Source: Actinomycetes bacterium
Lineage (GTDB): Bacteria > Actinomycetota > Actinomycetes > Propionibacteriales > Propionibacteriaceae
NCBI GenBank assembly: GCA_023387135.1
Contig: JAEWIK010000213.1
Span: 1-10,954, forward strand
Direction of reading: 5' to 3'
DNA: 10,954 nt
Shown here: piece after piece, positions 282 through 10,857 of the stretch
Numbering within the stretch: the stretch's first letter is position 1
Layout of the letters: each line of letters starts with the position of its first letter
Translations under genes and position numbers: made by a program
Notes under the pieces: generated by a model
What the model saw: the letters and a program-made list of their open reading frames with translations, nothing else
Databases searched by the model: none
What the model was told of the DNA's origin: nothing

Positions 282-1022
282 ATGCCGGACAAGGTGTTGA
301 AGTACTCCGCCGTGAAGCGGGCGATCTCCGACCGGATAGCGAACGAGCAGTACCCCCTGAACTCGATGATCCCCAGCGAGCGGGAACTCATCGAGACCTT
401 CGGCGTCAGCCGCATCACGGTCCGCAAGGCGATCGACGAGCTCGTCGCCGAGGGCTACCTCTACCGCATCCAGGGCAAGGGCACCTACGTCAAGAGCGAC
501 GAGGCGCCGCACGACCTGTTCTCCCTCACGAGCTGCACCGAGGAGATCGAGAGCATGGGGATGACGGCGGCCCGCCGCGTCATCAGGGCCGAGGTGGTGG
601 GCGCCGACAAGCGGCTGGCCGCCACGATGCAGATCGACGAGGGCAGCCCCGTCTTCGTCCTCGAACGCGTCTACTACGCCGACGCGCACCCCATCAACTA
701 CACGACCACCCACCTGCCGCTGACCCTGTTCCCGGGGCTCGACAAGCACGACTTCACCGTCGACTCGCTGTACTCGGTGCTCGAACGCCAGTACGGAGTG
801 ACCATCTCCAACGCCCGCCGGATGCTCGAGGCCACCCTGGCGGGCGGCGCCGTCGCCAAGCACCTCGAGGTGGCGAAGGGTTCGCCGCTCATCCTCTTCA
901 ACTGCGAGACCCACGGCGAGCTGCCGAGCCCGATGGGAGGGACCACCCAGCGGGTCATCGAGGCCTTCACGTGTTGGTACCGCACCGACGTCCACAAGTT
1001 CTACATCGACCAAGTCAGGTAG
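282..1022 (+). CDS. GntR family (HutC type) transcriptional regulator
   Basis: This 246-residue protein is a DNA-binding repressor that probably controls the operon in response to the imported compound or a product of it. The N-terminal winged helix-turn-helix spans about residues 5-70, with the diagnostic PSERELIETFGVSRITVRKA segment (31-50) and wing GKGTYV (65-70). The rest, about 85-240, matches a UTRA effector-binding domain in length and pattern, including the LERVYYADAHPINY-like strand. The length is normal for the HutC subfamily. I chose ATG 282 because GAGGTGG (267-273) lies 8 nt upstream; the in-frame GTGs at 270 and 273 overlap that ribosome binding site. As the first gene of the run, 49 nt before the binding-protein gene, it is likely a local, autoregulated repressor. 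The ligand cannot be told from sequence; UTRA domains often bind sugar phosphates, amino-acid derivatives or similar small molecules. Confidence 0.93.
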   Translation: MPDKVLKYSAVKRAISDRIANEQYPLNSMIPSERELIETFGVSRITVRKAIDELVAEGYLYRIQGKGTYVKSDEAPHDLFSLTSCTEEIESMGMTAARRVIRAEVVGADKRLAATMQIDEGSPVFVLERVYYADAHPINYTTTHLPLTLFPGLDKHDFTVDSLYSVLERQYGVTISNARRMLEATLAGGAVAKHLEVAKGSPLILFNCETHGELPSPMGGTTQRVIEAFTCWYRTDVHKFYIDQVR

Positions 1023-1071
1023 CTGCAGCACCGCCGCTGCCCAAGAAATCACCAAACAGGGAGACACACGC

Positions 1072-2286
1072 ATGTCAGTAGGAGGAAGGGCAACCCGGCT
1101 CATCGCCGCGGTCGTCCTCGCCGCGACCCTGGCGCTCAGCGCCTGCTCGTCCGGCAACGCACCAGCCGCCCCCGGTGGGTCAGCACCCGCCGCGGCGGGA
1201 GGCAAGATCGCACTCGTCGCCTCGGCGGCGGGCGCCAACGACAACGGCTACAACCAGACGGCCATCGAGGGGCTCAAGAAGCTCGCGGCCGAGAAGGGCG
1301 TCGAGTACAAGGTCGTCGAGACCACCACCGACTACCCGGGCACCCTGAAGACCCTCGCCCAGGCGGGCTTCAAGCTGATCTACTCGCTGGAGTACGACTT
1401 CACGGCCCTGATCGAGGGCGTCGGCGGCGAGAAGCCGCTGGCCGAGCAGTTCCCCGACACCACCTTCGTGGTCTTCAACGCCAACCCGAACCTGAAGGAC
1501 GGCAAGCCGATCCACTCCAACGTCATCTCGGTGATGTTCAACGTCAACGAGGCATCGTTCCTCGCCGGCGCGCTCAGCGTGATGGTGACGGAGAACGCAG
1601 CGACCCTGTTCGACAGCGCCGCCTACGGCTTCACCCCGGCCCCCGAGGGCCGCAAGGTCGGCTTCATCGGTGGCACGCAGTCGGCGGGCATCTCGGTCTT
1701 CTCCGACGGCTACGCCCAGGGCGTGGACTACGCCGCCAAGCAGGTCGGCGCTGACGCCGTCTACACGATGTACTCCACCTTCGATGCCGGCTTCGTCGAC
1801 ACCGCCAAGGGCTCCACCACCGCCGGCACCTACTTCGACCAGGGCGCGAACGTCGTCTTCAGCGTCGCGGGCTCGGTCGGCGACGGTGTCGCCGCCAAGG
1901 CCAAGGAGGTCAAGAAGCTCGCCGTGATGGTCGACGCCGACAAGGACGCCAGCCAGCCGGGCAGCGTGCTCACCAGCGTGCTGAAGAACACCAACGTCCC
2001 GGTGTACGAGCTGGGCATGAAGATGCTCGACGGCAGCCTCGCGGCCGAGGGTGGCAAGGAAGTCGACTACAACCTCGCCTCCGGCGCCACCGGCGTCACC
2101 GACCTGTCGGTCATCGAGAAGTCGGTCAAGTCCGACGATGCCGCCAAGGCCAAGTGGGCAGAGATCAAGAAGTCGCTCGACGACATCGTCGCCAAGATCA
2201 AGGACGGCTCCATCAAGGTCAGCAATGCGCAGATCGGGGAGACCCTCGACTACGCGACGCTGACCAACGTCAAGCTCCCCAACTGA
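1072..2286 (+). CDS. BMP family ABC transporter substrate-binding lipoprotein
   Basis: This 404-residue lipoprotein is the extracellular receptor of the ABC importer encoded next. A lipoprotein signal peptide is clear: Arg at 6 and 9, a hydrophobic stretch, and lipobox LSAC with the lipidated Cys at 25, followed by an Ala/Pro/Gly-rich linker to about 44. The mature part follows the BMP/PnrA-like fold (periplasmic binding protein type 1). IALVASAAGANDNGYNQ (46-62) carries the Asp57 and Asn61 of the family's D-x-x-x-N ligand motif, and later come TFVVFNANPN, NVISVMFNVNEASFLAGALS and GRKVGFIGG. Characterised BMP proteins with this transporter type bind purine or pyrimidine nucleosides (Treponema PnrA, Bacillus BmpA/NupN), so a nucleoside-like ligand is likely but unproven. 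AGGGAG (1058-1063) sits 8 nt before the ATG. The mature domain is Lys-rich and is tailed by an extended Lys/Asp-rich C-terminal region. Confidence 0.93.
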   Translation: MSVGGRATRLIAAVVLAATLALSACSSGNAPAAPGGSAPAAAGGKIALVASAAGANDNGYNQTAIEGLKKLAAEKGVEYKVVETTTDYPGTLKTLAQAGFKLIYSLEYDFTALIEGVGGEKPLAEQFPDTTFVVFNANPNLKDGKPIHSNVISVMFNVNEASFLAGALSVMVTENAATLFDSAAYGFTPAPEGRKVGFIGGTQSAGISVFSDGYAQGVDYAAKQVGADAVYTMYSTFDAGFVDTAKGSTTAGTYFDQGANVVFSVAGSVGDGVAAKAKEVKKLAVMVDADKDASQPGSVLTSVLKNTNVPVYELGMKMLDGSLAAEGGKEVDYNLASGATGVTDLSVIEKSVKSDDAAKAKWAEIKKSLDDIVAKIKDGSIKVSNAQIGETLDYATLTNVKLPN

Positions 2287-2308
2287 GTGGCTGACGGGAG
2301 TGAGCAGC

Positions 2309-3856
2309 ATGATCGTTGAGACCGTCGGCCTGTCGAAGAAGTTCGGCGACTTCACAGCCAACGACGCGATCGACCTGCGCGTCGAGCAGGGTGAGATCAA
2401 GGCGATAGTCGGCGAGAACGGCGCCGGCAAGTCGACCCTGATGAACATGCTCTACGGGCTGCTCACTCCCACCAGCGGAAGCATCCTCGTCAGGGGGGAG
2501 GAGCAGAGCTTCTCCTCCCCGGCGGATGCCATCCGCGCAGGCCTCGGCATGGTCCACCAGCACTTCAAGCTGGTGCCCAGCCTCACGGTCTGGGAGAACA
2601 TCGTCCTCGGCATCGAGCAGCGGGTCCGCACCAGGATCGGCAGGCTTCCCTTCATCGACGCCCGCAGACAGCAGGCCGACGTGAAGGCGGCCGTCGAGAG
2701 GTTCGGCATGGACCTCGACGTCAACGCGAAGGTCGCCGACCTGTCGGTCGGCCTCAAGCAGCGCGTCGAGATCATGAAGATGCTCTACCGGGACGTCGAG
2801 ATCCTCATCCTCGACGAGCCCACCGCCGTCCTCACCCCGCAGGAGGTCGAGGGCCTGGTCGTCACGCTGCGCGAACTGAAGGCGCAGGGCAAGACGATCA
2901 TCGTCATCACCCACAAGCTCAGCGAGGTGATGAAGCTGTCCGACAGCGTCACCATCATCAAGCGGGGACGGGTGGTGGCCGACCTCACGACGTCCGAGAC
3001 CAGCGAGCGCGAACTCGCCCAACTCATGGTCGGACGGGACGTCGTGTTGAGCGTCGCGCGCGACGAGCGCGACTGCTCGGGCCACGACGTCGTCTACTCG
3101 GTGACGGGGCTCTCCACCACCGACGAGCACGGCAAGCAGGTGCTCACCGACATCGACCTCGTCGTGCGGCGAGGCGAGGTGCTGGGCATCGCAGGGGTTG
3201 AGGGCAACGGCCAGAGCGAACTCCTGCGAGTGCTCACCGGCCTCATGACCACCACCCAGGGCACCGTCATGCTCGAGGGACGCGACCTCACCAACGCCTG
3301 GCCGATGGCGCTGCGCCAGGCAGGCGTCGGGATCATCCACGAGGACCGCTACCAGCACGGCCTGTGCCGCGAGCTGACGATCTCCGACAACGCGATCGCC
3401 GGCTACCACGAGCGTCCCGACGTCTGCCGGGGCGGCCTGCTGCTGGGCAAGGAGATCGACGCGAAGCGCGACAGGCTGATCGACGAGTACGACATCAGGG
3501 TCGCCGACCCCGAGGGCGCCCTCGGCCAGCTCTCCGGCGGCAACGCACAGAAGGTCGTCATCGCACGCGAGTTCGACACTGCCCCCACCCTGCTCATCGC
3601 AAGCCAGCCGACCCGCGGTGTGGACGTCGGCTCCATCGAATTCATCCATCGCAAGATCCTCGAACTGCGCGACAAGGGAACCGCCGTGCTGCTGATCTCC
3701 AGCGAGCTGTCGGAGATCATGAGCCTCTCCGACCGCATCGCAGTCATGTACAAGGGCGGCATCATCGGTGAGGTCACCGACGTGTCGCACGCCTCCACGA
3801 CGGCCATCGGCCTGCTCATGGCCGGCGTGGTCGAGCCCGCGGAGGCGGTCCGATGA
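2309..3856 (+). CDS. ABC transporter ATP-binding protein with two nucleotide-binding domains (BMP/nucleoside importer class)
   Basis: This 515-residue cytoplasmic ATPase powers the importer. It is a tandem duplication like Bacillus NupO (YufO) and RbsA. Domain 1 is complete: Walker A GENGAGKST (35-43), signature LSVGLKQ (145-151), Walker B ILDEP with Asp169 and Glu170, and switch His202 in VITHK. Domain 2 has an intact signature LSGGNAQK (408-415), but its Walker A reads GVEGNGQS (296-303) with Gln302 in place of Lys. Its Walker B reads LLIASQP, with Ser432 and Gln433 replacing Asp and Glu. This asymmetry is usual in the family and is not damage. I chose ATG 2309 because GGGAG (2296-2300) lies 8 nt upstream; the in-frame GTG at 2300 overlaps that site. 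It starts 22 nt after the binding-protein gene, and its stop overlaps the first permease start by 4 nt (ATGA). Confidence 0.95.
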   Translation: MIVETVGLSKKFGDFTANDAIDLRVEQGEIKAIVGENGAGKSTLMNMLYGLLTPTSGSILVRGEEQSFSSPADAIRAGLGMVHQHFKLVPSLTVWENIVLGIEQRVRTRIGRLPFIDARRQQADVKAAVERFGMDLDVNAKVADLSVGLKQRVEIMKMLYRDVEILILDEPTAVLTPQEVEGLVVTLRELKAQGKTIIVITHKLSEVMKLSDSVTIIKRGRVVADLTTSETSERELAQLMVGRDVVLSVARDERDCSGHDVVYSVTGLSTTDEHGKQVLTDIDLVVRRGEVLGIAGVEGNGQSELLRVLTGLMTTTQGTVMLEGRDLTNAWPMALRQAGVGIIHEDRYQHGLCRELTISDNAIAGYHERPDVCRGGLLLGKEIDAKRDRLIDEYDIRVADPEGALGQLSGGNAQKVVIAREFDTAPTLLIASQPTRGVDVGSIEFIHRKILELRDKGTAVLLISSELSEIMSLSDRIAVMYKGGIIGEVTDVSHASTTAIGLLMAGVVEPAEAVR

Positions 3857-4959
3857 GGTTCCTTCCGCGTGGTGGGTGGGGCCGGCTCGGCCTCGGCCTG
3901 GCGAACTCGGTCATCCCCGTCGTGGCGGCGTTCGCCCTCGGCGCGATCATCATCGCGCTGGTCGGCGAGAACCCGTGGACCACCTACCAGTTCATGTTCA
4001 ACCAGACGCTGTTCGACGCCGGCGGCTTCCTCAAGACGCTGCACTACGCCACCCCGCTGGTCCTCACCGGCCTGGCCATCGCCATCACCTTCAAGGCCAA
4101 CGTCTTCAACATGGGCGTCGAGGGCCAGATGCTCGGCGGTGCGTTCACCGCCTGCGTCATCGGCTTCAGCGTCCAGGGCCTGCCCTCGATCGCCCACGTC
4201 GGGCTCGCGCTGCTGGCCGCGATCGTGGTCGGCATGCTGCTCGCGCTCATCCCGGCCCTGCTGAAGGCCTACCTCGGGGTCAACGAGATCGTCGTCACGC
4301 TGATGCTGAACTACGCGATCATCGAGGTCCTGCGGGTGCTCTCCCAGACGGTGTTCCGCGACGCCTCGTCGGGCTACGTGTCGACCCCCTCGGTGCTCCC
4401 GACGGCGATGTTCACCAGGCTGTTCGGGACGAGCCTCACCCTGTTCAGCCTCGTCGTCCTCGTCGTGTTCGCCGCCATGTACGTGGTCTTCGCCCACTCG
4501 AAGCTCGGCTACGAGGTGACGGCGATGGGCATCAATCCCGACTTCGCGGAGGCGTCGGGCATGAACGTCCGCCGCAAGATCATGACGATCATGCTGATCA
4601 GCGGCGCGCTGAGCGGCCTGGCGGGCGCAGGGTTCATGCTGAGCGAGAAGTTCAAGTACACCCTCGACTTCTCGGGCAACCCCGGCCTCGGCTGGGACGG
4701 CATGCTGGTCGCCCTGCTCGGCGGCCACAACCCTGTCGCCGTGCTCATCGCCGCGGTCCTGTACGCAGCCCTGAAGACCGGCGCGGACGCCGTCAGCATC
4801 TACTCCTACGTGCCCAAGGAGATCGTGGCGGTCATCCAGGGCCTCATCATCCTGCTGCTGTCCATCCGCTACATCACGCGGAAACCCGGCGGGCGCTCCC
4901 GGAAGACCACCCCCACCACGACCGAGCGCCGCGAGCCGGCGGAGGCGGTGAAGGCATGA
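3853..4959 (+). CDS. ABC transporter permease (first membrane subunit, NupP/YufP-like)
   Basis: This 368-residue inner-membrane protein is the larger of two permeases in the importer. It has a short basic N-terminus, then many hydrophobic segments typical of the BPD_transp_2 family, the first at about 18-38. Two family hallmarks are visible: FNMGVEGQMLGGA and the GVNEIVVTLMLNYAI segment. A cytoplasmic loop, about YEVTAMGINPDFAEASGMNV, is where the ATPase would couple. The C-terminus is a hydrophilic, Arg/Thr-rich tail after the last membrane helix. The start is fixed by the ATGA overlap with the ATPase gene, and GGAGG lies at 3841-3845. Its stop overlaps the second permease start by 4 nt in the same way, so the subunits are probably made by coupled translation. 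Transport specificity follows the binding protein and cannot be read here. Confidence 0.93.
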   Translation: MRFLPRGGWGRLGLGLANSVIPVVAAFALGAIIIALVGENPWTTYQFMFNQTLFDAGGFLKTLHYATPLVLTGLAIAITFKANVFNMGVEGQMLGGAFTACVIGFSVQGLPSIAHVGLALLAAIVVGMLLALIPALLKAYLGVNEIVVTLMLNYAIIEVLRVLSQTVFRDASSGYVSTPSVLPTAMFTRLFGTSLTLFSLVVLVVFAAMYVVFAHSKLGYEVTAMGINPDFAEASGMNVRRKIMTIMLISGALSGLAGAGFMLSEKFKYTLDFSGNPGLGWDGMLVALLGGHNPVAVLIAAVLYAALKTGADAVSIYSYVPKEIVAVIQGLIILLLSIRYITRKPGGRSRKTTPTTTERREPAEAVKA

Positions 4960-5870
4960 ACATCGAAAAGATCCTCTACGACATGCTGGCGTACAGCGCA
5001 CCGATCGTCCTGGCGGTGCTGGGCGGCAACTTCGCCCACAGCGCCAATGTGCTGAACATCGCGCTCGAAGGCATGATGCTGGCCGGTGCCTTCACCAGCG
5101 TGCTGGTGGTGATCCTGACGGGCAACGTCCTGGTCGGGGTGCTGGCGGGGATCGTCGTCACGATGCTGCTCGGGCTGGTGTTCTCCTACCTGGGCGTCAC
5201 GAGGCGCGGCAACGTCATCATCGTGGGCCTGGCGGTCAACCTGCTGGCGGCCTCGGGCAGCGCGTTCATCCTCAAGGCGATGAACCTGGCGAACCTGAAC
5301 GCCAACAGCATCGTGAACGTGTCCGACCTCAAGATTCACATCCCGTTCGTCGAGTCGATCCCCTTCATCGGAGGGGTCGTCAGCGGGCATCCGCCGCTCA
5401 CCTACGTCGCCTTCCTCGGCATCGCCGTGATGTCGGTGATCATGTACCGCACGCGCTTCGGCGTGTACGTCCGCGTGGTGGGAGAGAACGAGGACGCCGC
5501 CGCCAGCGTCGGCATCAAGGCCGACCGCATCAAGTACGCGGCGGTGCTCATCGGGGCCGTCTGCTGCGCGCTCGCCGGAGCCAACCTCGCGCTGGAGAAG
5601 ATGGCGCTGTTCACCAACGGCATGACGGCGGGCATCGGCTTCATCGCCATCGCCGCCATCTTCTGCGGCCGCGGACGTCCCGGCACCACCTCGCTGTACG
5701 CCATCGCCTTCGGCCTGGCCCAGTCGCTCGCCATCAACCTCAACCTGTCGGCGGGGCCGGCGTCGGGCCTGTTCAACACGATCCCCTACATCATGATCGT
5801 GGTGATCCTGACGGTGGTCTCCTTCCTGCAGCACAAGAACAGCAAGGCCAGGGGGCTCATCAATGCCTAG
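4956..5870 (+). CDS. ABC transporter permease (second membrane subunit, NupQ/YufQ-like)
   Basis: This 304-residue inner-membrane protein is the smaller permease, which pairs with the preceding one to form the channel. The N-terminal region carries the family motif ANVLNIALEGMMLAGAF, equivalent to the FNMGVEGQMLGGA motif of its partner. It is followed by alternating hydrophobic helices and a coupling loop around YVRVVGENEDAAASVGIKAD. The C-terminal part has FIAIAAIFCGRGRPGTTSLY, seen in the same position in NupQ-type proteins. The length is normal for the family. The in-frame reading frame extends much further upstream through the first permease gene, but that extension is an antiphase shadow. 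The true start is the ATG in the ATGA overlap, with GGAGG at 4941-4945. Its last 8 nt overlap the hydrolase gene, which ties transport to catabolism in one transcript. Confidence 0.93.
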   Translation: MNIEKILYDMLAYSAPIVLAVLGGNFAHSANVLNIALEGMMLAGAFTSVLVVILTGNVLVGVLAGIVVTMLLGLVFSYLGVTRRGNVIIVGLAVNLLAASGSAFILKAMNLANLNANSIVNVSDLKIHIPFVESIPFIGGVVSGHPPLTYVAFLGIAVMSVIMYRTRFGVYVRVVGENEDAAASVGIKADRIKYAAVLIGAVCCALAGANLALEKMALFTNGMTAGIGFIAIAAIFCGRGRPGTTSLYAIAFGLAQSLAINLNLSAGPASGLFNTIPYIMIVVILTVVSFLQHKNSKARGLINA

Positions 5871-6453
5871 TCAGCTCCGCACCGACAGCGATCGTCCCGT
5901 CAAGACGGCGATCCTCGTCGTCGACATGGTCTACGACTTCACCAACCCCGACGGGCTCGTCTTCTACCCGGAGAACCTGCAGATCCTGCCGCGGATCGCC
6001 GAGGCGGTCGAGACCTGCAGGCGTCACGACGCGCTCGTCATCTACCTGCAGCACCGCTACCGCGCGGGCAAGTACGACAAGAACCTGCTCACCATGCGTC
6101 CCAACTGCATCGAAGGGACCGGGGGAGAGCAGATCGATGAGAGCCTCACCGTGCTCCCGGGCGACTACGTCATCCCGAAGCGGCGCTACAGCGCCTTCTA
6201 CGGCACCGACGTCGACCTCGTCCTGCGCGAGCACGACATCCGCCGCGTCATCGTGGTGGGCACCAAGACGAACTGCTGCATCCGCGCGACCGTCACCGAC
6301 GCCTACAACCTCGACTACGACGTCGTCGTGATCTCCGACTGCGTGGCGACCAACGACCCGACGGTGAACGCCGTCCATCTCTCGGACATCGACAAGTACC
6401 TCGGGACTGTCATCTCGCTCGACCGGCTCCCCGGGCTGCTGGAGGCTGAGTAA
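5863..6453 (+). CDS. isochorismatase-like cysteine hydrolase
   Basis: This 196-residue cytoplasmic enzyme belongs to the isochorismatase-like superfamily, whose members mostly hydrolyse amides, ureides or related C-N bonds. The Asp-Lys-Cys triad is present: Asp21 in ILVVDMVYDF, Lys106 in VIPKRRYSAF, and Cys139 in GTKTNCCIRATVTDAY. The neighbouring Cys138 makes an unusual CC pair at the nucleophile; by alignment to the T-x-x-C-V-x-x-T motif, Cys139 is the catalytic one. The metal-site pattern D-x-H-x-x-x-H of nicotinamidases is absent, so nicotinamide deamidation is unlikely. Relatives act on biuret, ureidoacrylate (RutB), maleamate, N-carbamoylsarcosine and others; the sequence does not single one out. 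In this operon it could open or deamidate a base released by the phosphorylase (inference). It overlaps the permease gene by 8 nt and is followed by a 2-nt gap to the kinase. Confidence 0.9.
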   Translation: MPSQLRTDSDRPVKTAILVVDMVYDFTNPDGLVFYPENLQILPRIAEAVETCRRHDALVIYLQHRYRAGKYDKNLLTMRPNCIEGTGGEQIDESLTVLPGDYVIPKRRYSAFYGTDVDLVLREHDIRRVIVVGTKTNCCIRATVTDAYNLDYDVVVISDCVATNDPTVNAVHLSDIDKYLGTVISLDRLPGLLEAE

Positions 6454-6455
6454 CA

Positions 6456-7415
6456 GTGCCTCGCGTCGACGCCGTGATCAGCGGCTACGTCAGCATGGAC
6501 AGGATCATCGAGGTCGCCTCGCCCCTGCGCACCGGCTACACGTCGCTGGTGACCAACCGTGACAACGCGTCGATCCACTACGGCGGCTGCTCGATCAACA
6601 TCGCCTACGGGATGGCTAGGCTCGGCCTGACCACCATGCCCTGCATCAGGGTCGGGGCCGACTACTCCGACATCGGCCTGGAGCGCTTCCTCACCGAGGC
6701 GGGCATCTCCACGGCGGCGGTCGGCGTCGTCGAGGACGAGATGACGTCCAACTGCTACCTCATCGAGGACGCCCAGGGCGAGCACGTCACCGTCTACTAC
6801 CCCGGTGCGATGGACGGACGGCACTTCCGTCCGCTCGACCCGGCGCTGTTCGCCGGCGTCAGGCTCGGCGTGATCACCGTCGGCGCCGAACCCGACAATC
6901 GCGAGTTCCTCGACCGCTGCCGCGAGCAGGGGGTGCCGGTCGCCTTCGGCATGAAGGGCGACTTCTCGGCCTTCCCCGACGGCTTCCTGTCGGAGGTTCT
7001 CTGCTACAGCTCGGTCATCTTCCTCAACCGCGCCGAGAGCGCCGCCATCAAGGAGAAGCTCGGCCTGGCCGACATCACCGAACTGTTCGGTTCGCAGCGC
7101 CTGCGCTACCTCGTCGTCACCGCGGGCGGCGACGGCAGCGTCTGCTACGAGCGGGACGGGTCTGGGACGACGTCGGTGGCGGTTCCTGTCGTCAGCGGCG
7201 AAAGGGTGGTCGACACCACGGGTTCGGGGGACGCCTACATCGCCGGCTTCCTCTACGGCTACCTCGACGGGCGCCCGGCCCTGGAGTGCGGACGGCTCGG
7301 CGCCACGCTCGCGTCCTTCGTCGTCGAGGCGCGCGGCTGCTGCACGGCCCTGCCGACCCCCGACGCCTTCTGGCAGCGCTACAACCACACCTTCGGAGAG
7401 GACTCCCCACGATGA
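6456..7415 (+). CDS. PfkB family kinase, nucleoside-kinase-like
   Basis: This 319-residue cytoplasmic kinase belongs to the PfkB/ribokinase family. The N-terminal GYVSMDRI (10-17) holds the substrate-binding Asp15. The YGGCSINIAYGMARLG segment, with Gly43-Gly44 and Asn48, corresponds to the GG-x-x-x-N motif. Family signature 2 is DTTGSGDA (253-260), with catalytic base Asp259. The C-terminal LASFVVEARGCCTALPTPDAFWQRY region resembles the subgroup of bacterial and archaeal nucleoside kinases. Possible substrates are an imported nucleoside, the free sugar, or ribose 1-phosphate; an archaeal PfkB enzyme makes ribose 1,5-bisphosphate from the last. I cannot decide among them. It starts with GTG; GGAGG (6441-6445) lies 10 nt before it. 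Its last 4 nt overlap the phosphorylase start, which supports consecutive roles for the two enzymes. Confidence 0.9.
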   Translation: MPRVDAVISGYVSMDRIIEVASPLRTGYTSLVTNRDNASIHYGGCSINIAYGMARLGLTTMPCIRVGADYSDIGLERFLTEAGISTAAVGVVEDEMTSNCYLIEDAQGEHVTVYYPGAMDGRHFRPLDPALFAGVRLGVITVGAEPDNREFLDRCREQGVPVAFGMKGDFSAFPDGFLSEVLCYSSVIFLNRAESAAIKEKLGLADITELFGSQRLRYLVVTAGGDGSVCYERDGSGTTSVAVPVVSGERVVDTTGSGDAYIAGFLYGYLDGRPALECGRLGATLASFVVEARGCCTALPTPDAFWQRYNHTFGEDSPR

Positions 7416-8161
7416 CGACCCTGTACCTCAAGGCTGACGACAGCATCGCAAGGTACGTGATCCTCTCGGGGGACCCGTGGCGCGTCGAGACCCTCGCCGG
7501 CATGCTGGACGACCCTCGCCATGTCGCCTTCGCCCGTGAGTTCAACACCTACACGGGCTCCTACAAGGGAGTACCCGTCACCGTCTCGTCGACGGGCATC
7601 GGCGCGCCGTCCGCCGCCATCGCGATGGAGGAGCTCTACGAGTGCGGCATGGAGGTCGCCGTCCGCATGGGCACCGTGATGGCGCTGTCGGACGACCTGC
7701 TCGGCAGGTTCATCATCCCCGTCGCCTCGATGCGCGAGGAGGGGACGACCGCCGCCTACGCGCCGCCCAGCTACCCCGCGGTCGCCGACCCCGACCTGAT
7801 GGTCGCGCTCAACGAGGCGGTGAGCGCCGCCGGGGCGCAGTACGTCAACGGGCTGAACTGCACAGTCGACGCCTTCTACACGCATATGAAGGAGTCGAAG
7901 CTGTCGCGGCAGCGGGGGATCGACCTCCACCCCGGCTTCGACAGGCTGCGCGACCTCGGGGTGGCGGGGCTCGACATGGAGAGCAGCTGCATCCTCACGC
8001 TGGGCAGGCTGATGGGGATCCGCGCCGCCGTCGTCACCCTCGCCACCGTCCTCGAAGGACTCAAGGACGCGCTCCAGGGCCAGGCCCGCACCGATGCCGA
8101 GGCCCTGCTCTGCCGGGTGGCCCTCGACGGCATCCACAGGTTCGCACGAAAGGACGCATGA
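7412..8161 (+). CDS. nucleoside phosphorylase, uridine phosphorylase-like (PNP_UDP family)
   Basis: At 249 residues this matches E. coli Udp (253) in size, and it probably cleaves a nucleoside with phosphate to base and pentose 1-phosphate. The phosphate site is intact: GDPWR (20-24), Arg42 in AREFN, and Arg85/Thr88 in VRMGTV. The sugar-binding stretch GLDMESSCILTLGRLMG matches NYEMESATLLT of Udp, with the ribose-contacting Met-Glu pair kept. Base recognition differs. The Gln-x-Arg pair that reads uracil in Udp is not seen in the equivalent segment after TVDAFYTHMKESK, and the Gly of GTTG is Met90 (GTVM). The base may therefore not be uracil. ATG 7412 is fixed by the ATGA overlap with the kinase gene and by GGAGAGG (7395-7401). 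It ends one base before the BtpA-like gene. Confidence 0.88.
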   Translation: MTTLYLKADDSIARYVILSGDPWRVETLAGMLDDPRHVAFAREFNTYTGSYKGVPVTVSSTGIGAPSAAIAMEELYECGMEVAVRMGTVMALSDDLLGRFIIPVASMREEGTTAAYAPPSYPAVADPDLMVALNEAVSAAGAQYVNGLNCTVDAFYTHMKESKLSRQRGIDLHPGFDRLRDLGVAGLDMESSCILTLGRLMGIRAAVVTLATVLEGLKDALQGQARTDAEALLCRVALDGIHRFARKDA

Positions 8162-8162
8162 C

Positions 8163-8969
8163 ATGGCAACGCAGGATTACTTCGGACCGGGCAAGCAGTT
8201 CATCCTCGGGATGGTGCACTGCCTGCCGTTGCCTGGGACGCCGAAGTTCGACGGGAACATGACGCGGATCATCGACCAGGCGGTCTCCGACGCCCAGACC
8301 CTCGAACGCGCGGGAGTCGACGCCGTCATCGTGGAGAACATGGGTGACGACCCGTTCGGCATCCAGCTCGATCCCCCGCAGAGCATGGCGCTCGCCGCGA
8401 TCAGCGCGCTGGTGAAGCAGGCGGTCGGCATCCCCGTCGGCATCGACGCGGCGCTCAACGACTACAAGACCTCGCTGTCCATCGCGCAGGCCATCGGCGG
8501 CGACTTCGTCCGCCTGCCGGTGTTCGTCGACACCGTCGACTTCTACGGCTGCGGGATCGTGCAGCCGTGCGCCCGCGAGGCCATGTACTACCGCAAGGCC
8601 ATCGGCGCCGAGAACGTCAGGGTGTTCGCCGACATCCAGGTCAAGCACACGCACATGACGCTGCCCAGCGTGACCATCGAGGACTCGGCCCGGGCGGCCC
8701 GCGACTGCGGCGCCGACGCCCTGATAGTGACGGGCTCCCGGATCGGCGTCGAGACACCGATCGACCTGATCCAGCGTGCGAAGCGCGTCGTCGACATCCC
8801 CGTCATCGCCGGCAGCGGCGTGAAGACGACGAACATCGCCGAACAACTCTCCATCGCCGACGGTGCCATCGTCGGCAGCAGCCTCAAGGAGGGCGGGGAC
8901 ATCAGCAACCCCGTCTCGTACGACCTCACCCGCGCCCTCGTGGACGCGCTCGGACGAAAGGACCACTGA
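8163..8969 (+). CDS. BtpA/SgcQ family TIM-barrel protein
   Basis: This 268-residue protein matches the BtpA/SgcQ family over its whole length. The family's opening motif ILGMVHCLPLPGTP (14-27) is followed by GVDAVIVENMGDDPF (51-65). The C-terminal half ends in a standard TIM-barrel phosphate-binding pair: GSGVKTTNI (217-225) and ADGAIVGSSLK (232-242). The family is named for a cyanobacterial photosystem I biogenesis factor, but its bacterial relatives such as E. coli SgcQ sit in sugar operons and their reactions are not established to my knowledge. A phosphorylated sugar or base-sugar intermediate is a likely ligand here (inference from the phosphate motif and neighbours). ATG 8163 is chosen because AAGGA (8150-8154) lies 8 nt upstream and the preceding gene stops at 8161. 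An ATG at 8158 is out of frame. Confidence 0.88.
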   Translation: MATQDYFGPGKQFILGMVHCLPLPGTPKFDGNMTRIIDQAVSDAQTLERAGVDAVIVENMGDDPFGIQLDPPQSMALAAISALVKQAVGIPVGIDAALNDYKTSLSIAQAIGGDFVRLPVFVDTVDFYGCGIVQPCAREAMYYRKAIGAENVRVFADIQVKHTHMTLPSVTIEDSARAARDCGADALIVTGSRIGVETPIDLIQRAKRVVDIPVIAGSGVKTTNIAEQLSIADGAIVGSSLKEGGDISNPVSYDLTRALVDALGRKDH

Positions 8970-8971
8970 CT

Positions 8972-10126
8972 GTGATGCGACCCATGAAGCTCGGCGGGAG
9001 CGAGTTGGTGTTCGGGCAGGGATGCCTCGAACACCTGCGCACGCTGAAGGGCCGCAGGGCGGTCATCGTCATGCGTGGCGACAGGTTCGCCCGCAACGGC
9101 ATCCTCGACATCGTCGGCGAGCACCTGGCGGCGGCGGGCATCGAGTGGAAGGTGTTCGACGGCGTCGAGCCCGACCCCAAGTTCTCGTCGGTGAAGGCGG
9201 GCGCCGACCTCATGAAGGAGTTCGGGCCGGACGTGATCATCGCGCTCGGCGGCGGCTCGGCGATGGACGCCGCCAAGGCCATGTGGGTCTTCTACGAGCA
9301 CCCCGAACTCGCCGACCTGGCGGACCTGCTGCCGCCGAAGAAGATCCCGCCGCTGCGGCAGAAGGCCCGCATGGTGTGCATCCCGTCCACCAGCGGCAGC
9401 GCCAGCGAGGTGAGCCGCAGCATCGTCATCTCCGACGACGAGAGCGGCACCAAGCACGGCATCGGTGACATGGAGATGGTGCCCGACATCGCGATCTGCG
9501 ATCCGCTGGTCACCGCCACGATGTCACCGCGCGTCACCGCCGACAGCGGCATGGACGCCCTCACCCACGCGATCGAGGCCTTCGTCTCGACCAGGGCCAA
9601 CTACCTGAGCGACATCCTCGCGCTGGCGGCGGCCAAGGACATCATGGAATCCCTGCCGGCGGCGTGCAGCCACGGCGACGACCTCGAGGTGCGCGAGCGG
9701 ATGCTCAACGCCTCGATGGTGGCGGGGCTGGCGTTCACCAACGTGTCGCTGGGGATCGTCCACTCGATGGCCCACTCGCTGGGCAGCCACTTCGGGATCG
9801 CACACGGCTTGGCCAACGCCGTCCTGCTGCCCTATGTCGTGGAGTTCAACAGTGCCGACGAGGTCGCGCGCGGCAGGTACCGCCAGCTCGCCGAGGCCAT
9901 CGACGCCGACGACCTGGCCAGCGGCCTGCGCTTCCTGTGCGCGAGGGTGAACGTCCCGTCCTCGCTGCGCGAACTCGTGCCCGACGAGCGCGACTTCATG
10001 GACAGGCTGCCCGCGCTGGTCGAGATGGCCCAGGCCGACGGCTGCACGAAGACCAACCCGATCGTGCCGACCCCCGAGCAGTTCCGTGAGCTGTACCTGG
10101 CCGCGTACAACGGCGAGGTGCGTTGA
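8972..10126 (+). CDS. iron-containing (type III) alcohol dehydrogenase
   Basis: This 384-residue NAD(P)-dependent enzyme interconverts an alcohol and an aldehyde or ketone. The N-terminal dinucleotide domain has GGGSAMDAAKAMW and a TSGSASEVSRSIVI segment. The C-terminal metal domain keeps all four Fe/Zn ligands: Asp195 and His199 in MDALTHAIEAF, His264 in VHSMAHSLGSHF, and His278 in IAHGLANAVLLP. Spacing and numbering are almost identical to E. coli lactaldehyde reductase FucO (D196, H200, H263, H277), so the protein is likely active. Substrate choice varies widely in this family. Between two phosphate-binding TIM barrels, it may reduce an aldehyde released by an aldol-type cleavage (inference). 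I chose GTG 8972, 9 nt after AAGGA (8958-8962); ATG 8975, one codon later, is a close alternative. It ends by overlapping the next gene by one base (TGATG). Confidence 0.93.
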   Translation: MMRPMKLGGSELVFGQGCLEHLRTLKGRRAVIVMRGDRFARNGILDIVGEHLAAAGIEWKVFDGVEPDPKFSSVKAGADLMKEFGPDVIIALGGGSAMDAAKAMWVFYEHPELADLADLLPPKKIPPLRQKARMVCIPSTSGSASEVSRSIVISDDESGTKHGIGDMEMVPDIAICDPLVTATMSPRVTADSGMDALTHAIEAFVSTRANYLSDILALAAAKDIMESLPAACSHGDDLEVRERMLNASMVAGLAFTNVSLGIVHSMAHSLGSHFGIAHGLANAVLLPYVVEFNSADEVARGRYRQLAEAIDADDLASGLRFLCARVNVPSSLRELVPDERDFMDRLPALVEMAQADGCTKTNPIVPTPEQFRELYLAAYNGEVR

Positions 10127-10857
10127 TGAAACTGATCTGCTACCTGTCGAACGGCTACCCGAGCCTCGCCGACAGCGCGGAGATCGCGCGCTGGTACGCC
10201 GAGTCGGGGTGCGACCTGGTCGAGATCGACCTGCCTGCGCGGGACCCGTACCTGGAAGGCGAGTACATCGCCGGGAGGATGGCGTCCGCCCTGGCGGCGT
10301 GCGACGACTACGACGCCTACATGGCCAACATCGTGGGCATCGCCGAGGCGTCCCCCGACCTGCGGATCCTCGTGCTCGCCTACGAGCAGACCGTCGTCGA
10401 GATCGGGGTGGAGAAGTTCATCGCCTTCTGCACCGACAACGAGTTCCTGGACGTGATCCTCGTCGGGCTCGCCAGCGACGAGGTGAAGAACCGGCTGATC
10501 GAGCGCGGCATCAGGGTGTCCTGCTATGTGCAGTTCCACATGGACCCGGCGGAGATCGAGTCGGCCAAGCAGTCGAACGGCTTCGTCTACCTGCAGGCGA
10601 GGCCGGCTCCCGGACAGGTCAATCCCGCCTTCCCGACCCTCGCCGACTGTGTCGCCGAACTGCGGCGCCAGGGCATCGAGCGGCCCATCTACTGCGGAGT
10701 GGGCGTGGCGACCCCCGAGGACTTCGCCGACGTCCGCGACGCGGGTGCCGACGGTGCTTTCGTCGGGAGCACGATCCTGCGCCTCTACCAACAGCCCGAC
10801 GTGCTTCGCGCGACGATCAGGGCGTTCAAGCAGGCCCCGGTGGACCAGCCGGTCTAG
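10126..10857 (+). CDS. tryptophan synthase alpha-like TIM-barrel enzyme (TrpA paralogue)
   Basis: This 243-residue TIM barrel resembles tryptophan synthase alpha chain, which retro-aldol-cleaves indole-3-glycerol phosphate to indole and glyceraldehyde 3-phosphate. It is about 25 residues shorter than TrpA. Catalytic Glu49 of E. coli TrpA aligns with Glu33 in LVEIDLPARDPYLEG. The second catalytic residue, Asp60, is replaced by Glu44. The phosphate-binding loops are kept: CGVGVATPEDF (190-200) and AGADGAFVGSTI (206-217). No trpB or other trp gene is near, and the genes around it are catabolic, so a role in tryptophan synthesis is doubtful. An aldolase-like step on another phosphorylated substrate is a reasonable guess, as is a non-aldolase TIM-barrel role. 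ATG 10126 is chosen because the preceding TGA overlaps it (TGATG) and GCGAGG lies just upstream; TTG 10123 is less likely. It is the last gene of the run. Confidence 0.82.
   Translation: MKLICYLSNGYPSLADSAEIARWYAESGCDLVEIDLPARDPYLEGEYIAGRMASALAACDDYDAYMANIVGIAEASPDLRILVLAYEQTVVEIGVEKFIAFCTDNEFLDVILVGLASDEVKNRLIERGIRVSCYVQFHMDPAEIESAKQSNGFVYLQARPAPGQVNPAFPTLADCVAELRRQGIERPIYCGVGVATPEDFADVRDAGADGAFVGSTILRLYQQPDVLRATIRAFKQAPVDQPV

Follow-up and report, generated by a model that had tools for sequence, protein, structure and literature searches.

The closest described system to the locus reported here is the non-carboxylating pentose bisphosphate pathway of haloarchaea. According to the available sections of its description (Sato et al. 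2022, PMC9700705), the first half of this pathway comprises a uridine-phosphorylase-like guanosine phosphorylase, a ribose-1-phosphate (R1P) kinase and a ribose-1,5-bisphosphate (R15P) isomerase, and the second half a ribulose-1,5-bisphosphate (RuBP) phosphatase, a ribulose-1-phosphate (Ru1P) aldolase and a glycolaldehyde reductase; the combination of phosphorylase, R1P kinase, aldolase and glycolaldehyde reductase has been shown there experimentally. As far as those sections go, the first two enzyme kinds and the last may be shared by a bacterial gene set that we analyzed on 10,954 nt of a Propionibacteriaceae contig (GenBank GCA_023387135.1, JAEWIK010000213.1), a stretch of DNA referred to below as the window. 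Its positions 282–10857 contain eleven plus-strand open reading frames (ORFs), which the ORF list, Pfam and NCBIfam resolve into a GntR/UTRA regulator (REG), a four-gene importer of the BMP class (BMP, ATP, PRM1 and PRM2) and six enzymes (ISO, PFK, PNP, BTP, ADH and TRP). Together these genes constitute a real, conserved, single-operon pathway. Our overall model, in which an imported nucleoside-like riboside would have its sugar fermented outside the deo route, is offered more tentatively, as somewhat less likely than not.

Conservation of the operon and its operator-like site

Loci were fetched from GTDB genomes with TRP patterns taken from an alignment, 71 in all, and their genes were called by phmmer with the eleven window proteins at a 70-bit threshold. 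Of the 71, 54 hold the full structural set of ten genes in collinear order, a number that describes conservation given TRP, the frequency of the other enzymes without TRP lying outside the reach of the sample. The collinear loci include Lachnospiraceae, Oscillospiraceae and other clostridia, the Bacilli Peribacillus (L055), Vagococcus (L059) and an Enterococcaceae metagenome-assembled genome (MAG; L069), Spirochaetes (L040, L044), Izimaplasma (L039) and Mollicutes MAGs (L056, L057, L061). The carriers, by record title gut and sediment anaerobes of several phyla, are mostly oxygen-avoiding bacteria. Eleven of the remaining 17 loci run off a contig end (L002, L008, L013, L024, L028, L029, L035, L037, L054, L058, L060), with ADH split into two ORFs in L028 and PRM2 in L029; also among the 17 are the broken or incomplete L063 and L071 and the variants L047, L065, L068 and L070. 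REG lies upstream in 45 of the collinear loci and only downstream in seven, and was not seen in two (L025, L046). Five Chloroflexota loci are either cut (L024, L037, L058) or rearranged (L068, L070).

All six enzyme types are also kept, in another order, in L113, a locus from Chloroflexota (the phylum of genome G003) that holds BMP, ATP, PRM1, PRM2, three PNP copies, PFK, TRP, a YqhD-like ADH, ISO and BTP. Chance co-location is ruled out by the collinearity in 54 of 71 loci taken together with the retention of all six types in this reordered locus. The import-and-catabolism unit proposed in the original prediction, made from the window alone, is found in distant genera and is not peculiar to one strain; that it serves one single pathway we hold to be almost certain. 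The three PNP paralogues of L113 form a tandem trio within one operon (10920–13444, minus strand).

The distribution of the operon is patchy, since phylum samples return mostly the seed genome itself: TRP-like matches were found in 1 of 398 genomes (two samples with overlapping listed genomes) and in 3 of 301 in another, where one match (G794) is a trp operon. Within families, matches with E < 1e-50 occur in 7 of 150 genomes in the family of G001, the other 36 of its 43 matches (5e-24 to 9e-16) being presumed canonical TrpA, and matches at 1e-32 in 11 of 397 genomes in the family of G071. A Propionibacteriaceae MAG protein (P0012) is about 80% identical to TRP, which, together with the GC content of the window, suggests an actinobacterial source. 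Directly 3' of TRP, 17 of the 71 loci carry a VOC/glyoxalase-superfamily gene (L004, L006, L008, L009, L016, L022, L023, L029–L036, L045, L066; clustered, with one member Pfam-checked); the window ends 97 nt past TRP, before any such gene could show. In Anaerotruncus colihominis DSM 17241 (L063, 9571–10718) there is a short ADH ORF and a TRP in two ORFs, near which phmmer detected no further operon gene; strain JM4-15 (L004) has the full set.

The layout of the window itself agrees with a single unit. Regulator, complete importer and six enzymes lie on the plus strand as predicted, and the Pfam assignments (GntR with UTRA, Bmp, ABC_tran, BPD_transp_2, Isochorismatase, PfkB, PNP_UDP_1, BtpA, Fe-ADH and Trp_syntA) agree with the families predicted; the operon was called 'ten-gene', which holds for the structural genes, there being eleven ORFs once the regulator is counted. 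Near-zero spacing was likewise borne out. When ADH and TRP are started at their ATG codons (8975 and 10126), the gaps from REG to TRP are 49 nt between REG and BMP, then 13, −4, −4, −8, +2, −4, +1, +5 and −1 nt, and because those from BMP onward span only −8 to +13 nt, they suggest one transcript from BMP to TRP with coupled translation. The starts of REG, PRM2, PNP, BTP and ADH were partly hand-chosen inside longer mechanical ORFs, their start codons then being checked; the Pfam and NCBIfam scans took ADH from a CTG codon at 8966, and TRP residues are numbered from a TTG at 10123, the start used in several analyses. Among the eight window proteins scanned BTP alone passes an NCBIfam cut-off (TIGR00259), so the curated models give no exact functions. 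As had been stated, none of deoB, deoC, cdd, a pseudouridine glycosidase or the rut set occurs among the eleven proteins (Pfam/NCBIfam). GC content is 64–69%, and scans of the window for inverted repeats, promoters, terminators, Rfam families and tRNAs gave nothing of note.

REG (282–1022; Pfam UTRA 1.1e-30, GntR 9.1e-20) belongs to the GntR/UTRA superfamily; the narrower label of a HutC-type regulator did not stand, the HutC equivalog being missed (142.3 vs 220 bits). HutC-type half-sites, consensus GTNTANAC, were rejected as operator, since they turn up in 1 of the 92 upstream regions and in 5.4 on average after shuffling. Top-ranked over 92 upstream regions is the palindrome GTCATGAC, which 13 of them contain, whereas no 8-mer reached more than 7 regions in 20 base shuffles; counted per locus, 13 of 59 have it, and 200 Markov shuffles gave 0.2 on average and 2 at most. 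In the window an operator-like site, CTGGTCATGACAACATG, is located at 209–225 on the plus strand, 56 nt 5' of the REG ORF, and matches the pattern CTGGTNATGACRACATR without mismatch. This pattern was written from sites already seen, so that its locus count is not independent: at up to two mismatches there are 25 sites in 72 loci (1.27 Mb) against one in one Markov shuffle, 19 of them before REG or BMP (18 within 80 nt, that of L045 at 538 nt) and six elsewhere.

At up to one mismatch, 19 of 24 genomes carry the site, which is near-unique per genome (21 sites, against three for a reversed-pattern control). Seven of the 24 had been picked because the site was already seen, and G119, G139 and G882, judging by coordinates and site letters, are apparently genomes of loci already seen. 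There are nine BMP-operon genomes without an earlier exact site (G002, G004, G005, G006, G042, G044, G154, G933, G1015): in six of them the site lies 9.0–10.2 kb upstream of TRP, in G042 it precedes a second REG-BMP copy, and G002 and G005 have none at the operon at this threshold. The same threshold gave no site in the variant genomes G001, G003, G071 and G842, and one on another contig in G1060. Four off-operon sites (G002, G006:C22, G1060, G1101:C9) are near the control level of three. The regulator thus probably acts on this single operon through a 17-nt site in many, not all, lineages.

Uptake and the front enzymes

BMP (1072–2286; Pfam Bmp 7.2e-34), the substrate-binding lipoprotein of the ABC importer, has Lbp, the Borrelia-type BmpA and BmpD, and TmpC as its nearest solved relatives in the PDB, whose ligands we take to be nucleosides. 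It is followed by an ATPase with two ABC_tran stretches (ATP, 2300–3856, GTG start with an ATG at 2309; Pfam 1.4e-55) and by the permeases PRM1 (3853–4959; BPD_transp_2 5.6e-38) and PRM2 (4956–5870; 1.1e-30). By family, the importer would be of the nucleoside type, in line with the original prediction, and a nucleoside-like substrate is in our view very probable. A BMP importer is also found in Acetoanaerobium noterae (L130, 1054–7714), followed by a gene resembling an oxidoreductase and a PNP homologue; ISO, PFK, BTP and TRP were not detected in that locus.

Degradation of the base, which the original prediction included, would have to fall to ISO (5863–6453; Pfam Isochorismatase 1.2e-41), an isochorismatase-family cysteine hydrolase and the only enzyme of the set that could act on it. 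D21, K106 and C139 are conserved in at least 95% of 61 sequences and presumably form the Asp-Lys-Cys triad typical of the family. The best PDB match is the cysteine hydrolase 3irv, followed by an isochorismatase hydrolase and a protein related to N-carbamoylsarcosine amidase; the match to RutB is weak (73 of 378 bits). Distant nicotinamidases also occur among the solved relatives, and on a Vibrio tubiashii plasmid (L129, 6228–7699) a PNP homologue, 35.5% identical, adjoins pnuC. Both observations would suit the salvage of nicotinamide riboside or another riboside with an amide group, in which PNP frees the base, ISO hydrolyses the amide and the other enzymes use the ribose. The closer relatives of ISO, however, are other cysteine hydrolases, N-carbamoylsarcosine amidase and RutB, with nicotinamidases farther off, there is no NAD-salvage gene among the eleven, and PnuC-type proteins carry several vitamins and nucleosides; we regard this explanation as quite improbable.

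PNP (7412–8161; Pfam PNP_UDP_1 1.7e-34) matches TIGR01718 at 5.3e-50 with 170 bits, short of the equivalog cut-off of 280.3, and is of the uridine-phosphorylase type at family level only. Aligned with E. coli-type uridine phosphorylase, it keeps the phosphate-binding arginines and largely keeps the FY pair; of the two residues that contact uracil, the Gln has given way to a conserved Met and the Arg is replaced as well. Since both uracil contacts are replaced, the substrate of the operon is probably not uridine, and ordinary uridine salvage was judged unlikely. Of 18 operon genomes (completeness not stated), 16 carry elsewhere a deoB and 17 a deoC above cut-off. Common nucleosides therefore mostly have a route in these cells, which raises the odds of an unusual substrate or of a special use in fermentation, and indirectly this argues against ordinary purine salvage as well. 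The non-standard nucleoside of the original prediction fits the replaced uracil contacts and the mostly present deoB and deoC; common purine nucleosides are still compatible with the data, as taken up below.

The kinase PFK (6456–7415, GTG start) belongs to the PfkB family and has as its best solved relative the sugar kinase MJ0406 (3.3e-35), which we take to be a nucleoside kinase. Among models that span most of the protein its best match is the R1P kinase NF053626 (2.8e-19, 69.7 bits against a cut-off of 330); IolC scores higher over the C-terminal third.

Two barrels, a dehydrogenase and their variants

BTP (8163–8969) is a phosphate-binding TIM barrel that clearly belongs to the BtpA/SgcQ family, exceeding the cut-offs of both TIGR00259 (217.8 vs 153.4 bits) and PF03437 (227.8 vs 30 bits). 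Its AlphaFold2 (AF2) model, with a predicted local distance difference test (pLDDT) score of 92.9, has HisF, TrpA, GGGPS and NanE among the nearest solved folds, at template modelling (TM) scores of about 0.6. H19, D43, E58, N59, D62, R117, D157, K161 and K242 are invariant in 29 sequences, alphaproteobacterial and haloarchaeal ones included. In all five haloarchaeal or alphaproteobacterial records opened for that point, BtpA adjoins or is near a PfkB gene; the two haloarchaeal kinases score best with R1P kinase, the three alphaproteobacterial ones with ribokinase. In sgc and in L065/L124 BtpA adjoins a phosphotransferase system (PTS). In another alphaproteobacterial record, neither PfkB nor PTS is close to the SgcQ-like gene. 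The substrate of BTP is probably a phosphorylated sugar or riboside. Two more loci show BtpA genes in other company: L126 (7561–12376) has one with two amidohydrolase-like genes, the first without NCBIfam match, and a mannose-type PTS (names by resemblance), and in Sporolactobacillus (L125, 7231–8660, minus strand) an SgcQ-like BtpA gene, divergent from the operon, overlaps a TrpF-like gene whose product has phosphoribosylanthranilate isomerase as its best model, below cut-off.

This neighborhood bears on a bacterial pentose bisphosphate route, in which PNP and PfkB would produce R15P, BTP would convert it to RuBP, TRP would split RuBP into dihydroxyacetone phosphate and glycolaldehyde phosphate (or, once dephosphorylated, glycolaldehyde), and ADH would reduce the C2 product. 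As far as the available sections of PMC9700705 describe it, the front chemistry is shared with haloarchaea, and some species there have phosphorylase and R1P kinase and no known R15P isomerase. On Haloferax and Halobellus plasmids (L073, L075), BtpA adjoins a PfkB gene with R1P kinase as best model, below cut-off (104 and 108 of 330 bits), and this BtpA is a candidate for an R15P-using enzyme where the isomerase is absent. Against such a route, the eleven window proteins include no eIF2B-type R15P isomerase, HAD phosphatase or FucA aldolase (Pfam/NCBIfam), and of the three alphaproteobacterial BtpA-linked kinases two are far nearer to ribokinase and the third (L074) slightly so. A PTS-linked BTP, moreover, would hardly meet a 1-phosphate, and the TrpA-type mechanism leaves the phosphate beside a three-carbon aldehyde and not beside an enolate. 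We consider the bisphosphate route unlikely.

TRP (10126–10857; Pfam Trp_syntA 7.1e-26) is labelled tryptophan synthase in the source databases, an identity that we rejected: the trpA equivalog cut-off is missed (81.2 bits against 102.35) and there is no trpB among the eleven genes. Some operon genomes (G004, G006 and G139) have a second, weaker match, which may be their true TrpA. The AF2 model (pLDDT 94.4) superposes on TrpA with a TM score of 0.85 at about 21–25% identity. The first catalytic Glu, E34, is invariant in 18 aligned rows, position 45 is Glu or Asp (the second acid) in 17 of the 18, all but L107, the tyrosine of GFVY is nearly invariant, and the TrpA phosphate loops GVG and GS are kept. 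We take the acid pair and the tyrosine to correspond to E49, D60 and Y175 of TrpA. As judged from these sequence features, the TrpA-type acid pair and the loops for the phosphate of glyceraldehyde-3-phosphate (G3P) appear to be in place.

Between the two barrels lies ADH (8975–10126, alternative GTG start at 8972; Pfam Fe-ADH 1.5e-46), an iron-containing, AdhE/FucO-like alcohol dehydrogenase. AdhE is its lowest E-value model (4.5e-101, below cut-off), the nearest others being ErcA and lactaldehyde reductase (1.3e-81, below the equivalog cut-off); the haloarchaeal glycolaldehyde reductase NF053832 matches weakly (2.2e-5). The AdhE match suits a deoxynucleoside version of the pathway with 2-deoxyribose as sugar, where TRP would be a non-Schiff-base analogue of DeoC yielding G3P and acetaldehyde, which ADH would reduce to ethanol and a rhizobial aldehyde dehydrogenase (ALDH) would oxidise. 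The exchange of ADH for ALDH in plant-associated relatives and the want of an ordinary aldolase in the operon speak for it too. With deoC and deoB already so common in the operon genomes, with deoxyribose needing neither the PfkB nor the BtpA step, and with PNP keeping the Glu that binds the ribose hydroxyls in this phosphorylase family, we find this version decidedly unlikely.

Variant loci show which parts of the operon travel together. L065 and L124 carry a PRD-type regulator, a mannose/sorbose-type PTS, BTP, TRP and a YqhD-like ADH (regulator, EIIB, EIIC and EIID of L065 confirmed by Pfam, the other names by resemblance). L107 has TRP and a YqhD-like ADH with two ADP-ribosylglycohydrolase-family proteins (Pfam) and, by resemblance, EIIA-, EIIB- and EIID-like PTS genes and a GntR-like regulator; no EIIC was called. 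The ADHs of L113, L065, L124 and L107 have as best model PRK15138 (284–296 bits, cut-off 645), which we take to be YqhD. Because these enzymes are YqhD-like and three of the four only 28–29% identical to the window ADH, we read them as a sign that an aldehyde reductase was recruited beside TRP from two Fe-ADH subfamilies. Escherichia coli YqhD and FucO both reduce glycolaldehyde, according to the available sections of PMC4559361.

The front module occurs apart from the tail on two rhizobial plasmids (L128, L131). That of Agrobacterium vitis has, by annotation, REG-BMP-ATP-PRM-PRM-ISO-PFK-PNP in the same order followed by SIS and ALDH genes, with proteins 27–44% identical to their window counterparts and a kinase whose best model is R1P kinase, below cut-off. 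On the Rhizobium lusitanum plasmid phmmer finds BMP, ATP, PRM1, PRM2, ISO, PFK, SIS and ALDH; its PNP is a tblastn match only, missing from the ORF call. Relatives of the SIS protein gave no help with the function of this tail. A split of the enzymes among other operons is thus partly seen, front in L128/L131 and tail parts in L065/L124 and L107, in the form of swappable modules. Such separation might hint that the transcript joins two independent functions, one half serving nucleoside salvage and the other an unrelated sugar phosphate; with all six enzyme types together in the reordered L113 and the ten genes collinear in 54 of 71 loci, this appears highly improbable. In the simplest joint reading, the front half would hand a sugar phosphate to an aldehyde-yielding tail, the aldehyde being reduced by anaerobes and oxidised by aerobes.

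A proposed pathway and its relation to known systems

How might these enzymes act together? In the preferred model, the BMP importer would take up a riboside, probably not uridine, and ISO would hydrolyse an amide or ureide of its aglycone. PNP would phosphorolyse the riboside to a sugar 1-phosphate and the PfkB kinase would add the 5-phosphate to give a 1,5-bisphosphate, unless a 5'-phosphate is made first. The BtpA barrel would then turn the 5-phosphorylated riboside or the bisphosphate into an open-chain aldose 5-phosphate. TrpA releases G3P, and its geometry applied to such an aldose would lead to a cut between C2 and C3 that frees a C2 aldehyde; TRP would act in this manner and yield G3P and a C2 aldehyde, glycolaldehyde if the sugar is ribose. 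Reduction of this aldehyde to the alcohol by the Fe-ADH would rid anaerobes of NAD(P)H, and in the rhizobial relatives ALDH would oxidise an aldehyde instead.

We infer the substrate and both TIM-barrel reactions (BTP and TRP), and the parts of the model differ in strength. Passage through an aldehyde intermediate is likely, and we lean slightly towards TRP being a C–C lyase; that the released aldehyde is glycolaldehyde itself is a weaker possibility. The fully specified reading, a TrpA paralogue working as a sugar-phosphate C–C lyase with a BtpA partner on nucleosides barred from the deo/pentose-phosphate route, is somewhat doubtful as a whole, as are its products, G3P and a C2 aldehyde reduced in anaerobes and oxidised in rhizobia.

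Several points weigh against this model, which is a reasoned one with predicted ligand and activities. Common purine nucleosides are a possible substrate despite the changed uracil pocket, because the uridine-phosphorylase-like haloarchaeal enzyme prefers guanosine (available sections of PMC9700705). With plain ribose as the sugar, the route would waste resources in any cell equipped with deoB. Phosphorolysis and kinase steps may come in either order, since no R1P kinase match reaches its cut-off and MJ0406 is the nearest kinase of solved structure. Individual loci depart from the scheme too: the rhizobial SIS and ALDH tail has no recognisable aldolase and does not readily fit the TRP cleavage step; in the Anaerolineae loci L068 and L070 a weak BTP follows TRP, and the locus lacks ADH (L070 being cut by the contig end), and genome G003, of unstated completeness, gave no Fe-ADH match at 1e-20. 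The operon of L047 has no BTP, an SgcQ-like gene (30% identical) standing divergently upstream, where it pairs with a TrpF-like gene on the other strand. L107 has no BTP in its locus, yet three BtpA matches elsewhere in its genome, and its TRP is the one without the second TrpA acid.

Recurrence in several phyla means that the pathway and its nucleoside may be widespread, though patchy. The operon places a TrpA paralogue that databases name tryptophan synthase in a catabolic setting. It also suggests for BtpA/SgcQ proteins a role that can be tested; for these proteins the literature search gave no account of a catabolic role among the matches listed. If the model is true, the BtpA family gains such a role, and the chemistry of tryptophan synthase is run as an aldolase in fermentation. 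The absence of a matching known pathway, claimed at the outset, stands so far: a limited literature search, with subscription journals mostly outside it, gave no account of this gene set among the matches listed.

Set beside the known systems, TRP shares with TrpA its fold, acid pair and phosphate loops, and differs in its low identity, its sub-threshold equivalog score and the lack of a trpB partner in the set. With the deo operon, the window operon has in common a nucleoside phosphorylase and the expected products, a C3 phosphate and a C2 aldehyde, whereas DeoB and DeoC are encoded elsewhere in most operon genomes. The sgc operon (Salmonella record) likewise combines a BtpA-family barrel with a second phosphosugar-type barrel (RPE-like), next to a PTS, and in contrast lacks nucleoside enzymes and a TrpA-like protein. 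As for the haloarchaeal pathway, to the extent that the available sections of PMC9700705 describe it, the proposed likenesses are a uridine-phosphorylase-like enzyme, a PfkB-type kinase, an aldol cleavage and an aldehyde reduction; the window set is bacterial and brings TrpA-like and BtpA barrels, a cysteine hydrolase and a BMP importer. Because the three middle enzymes, R15P isomerase, RuBP phosphatase and FucA, are missing among its eleven genes, the operon is not the haloarchaeal pentose bisphosphate pathway; the two may nonetheless operate alike.

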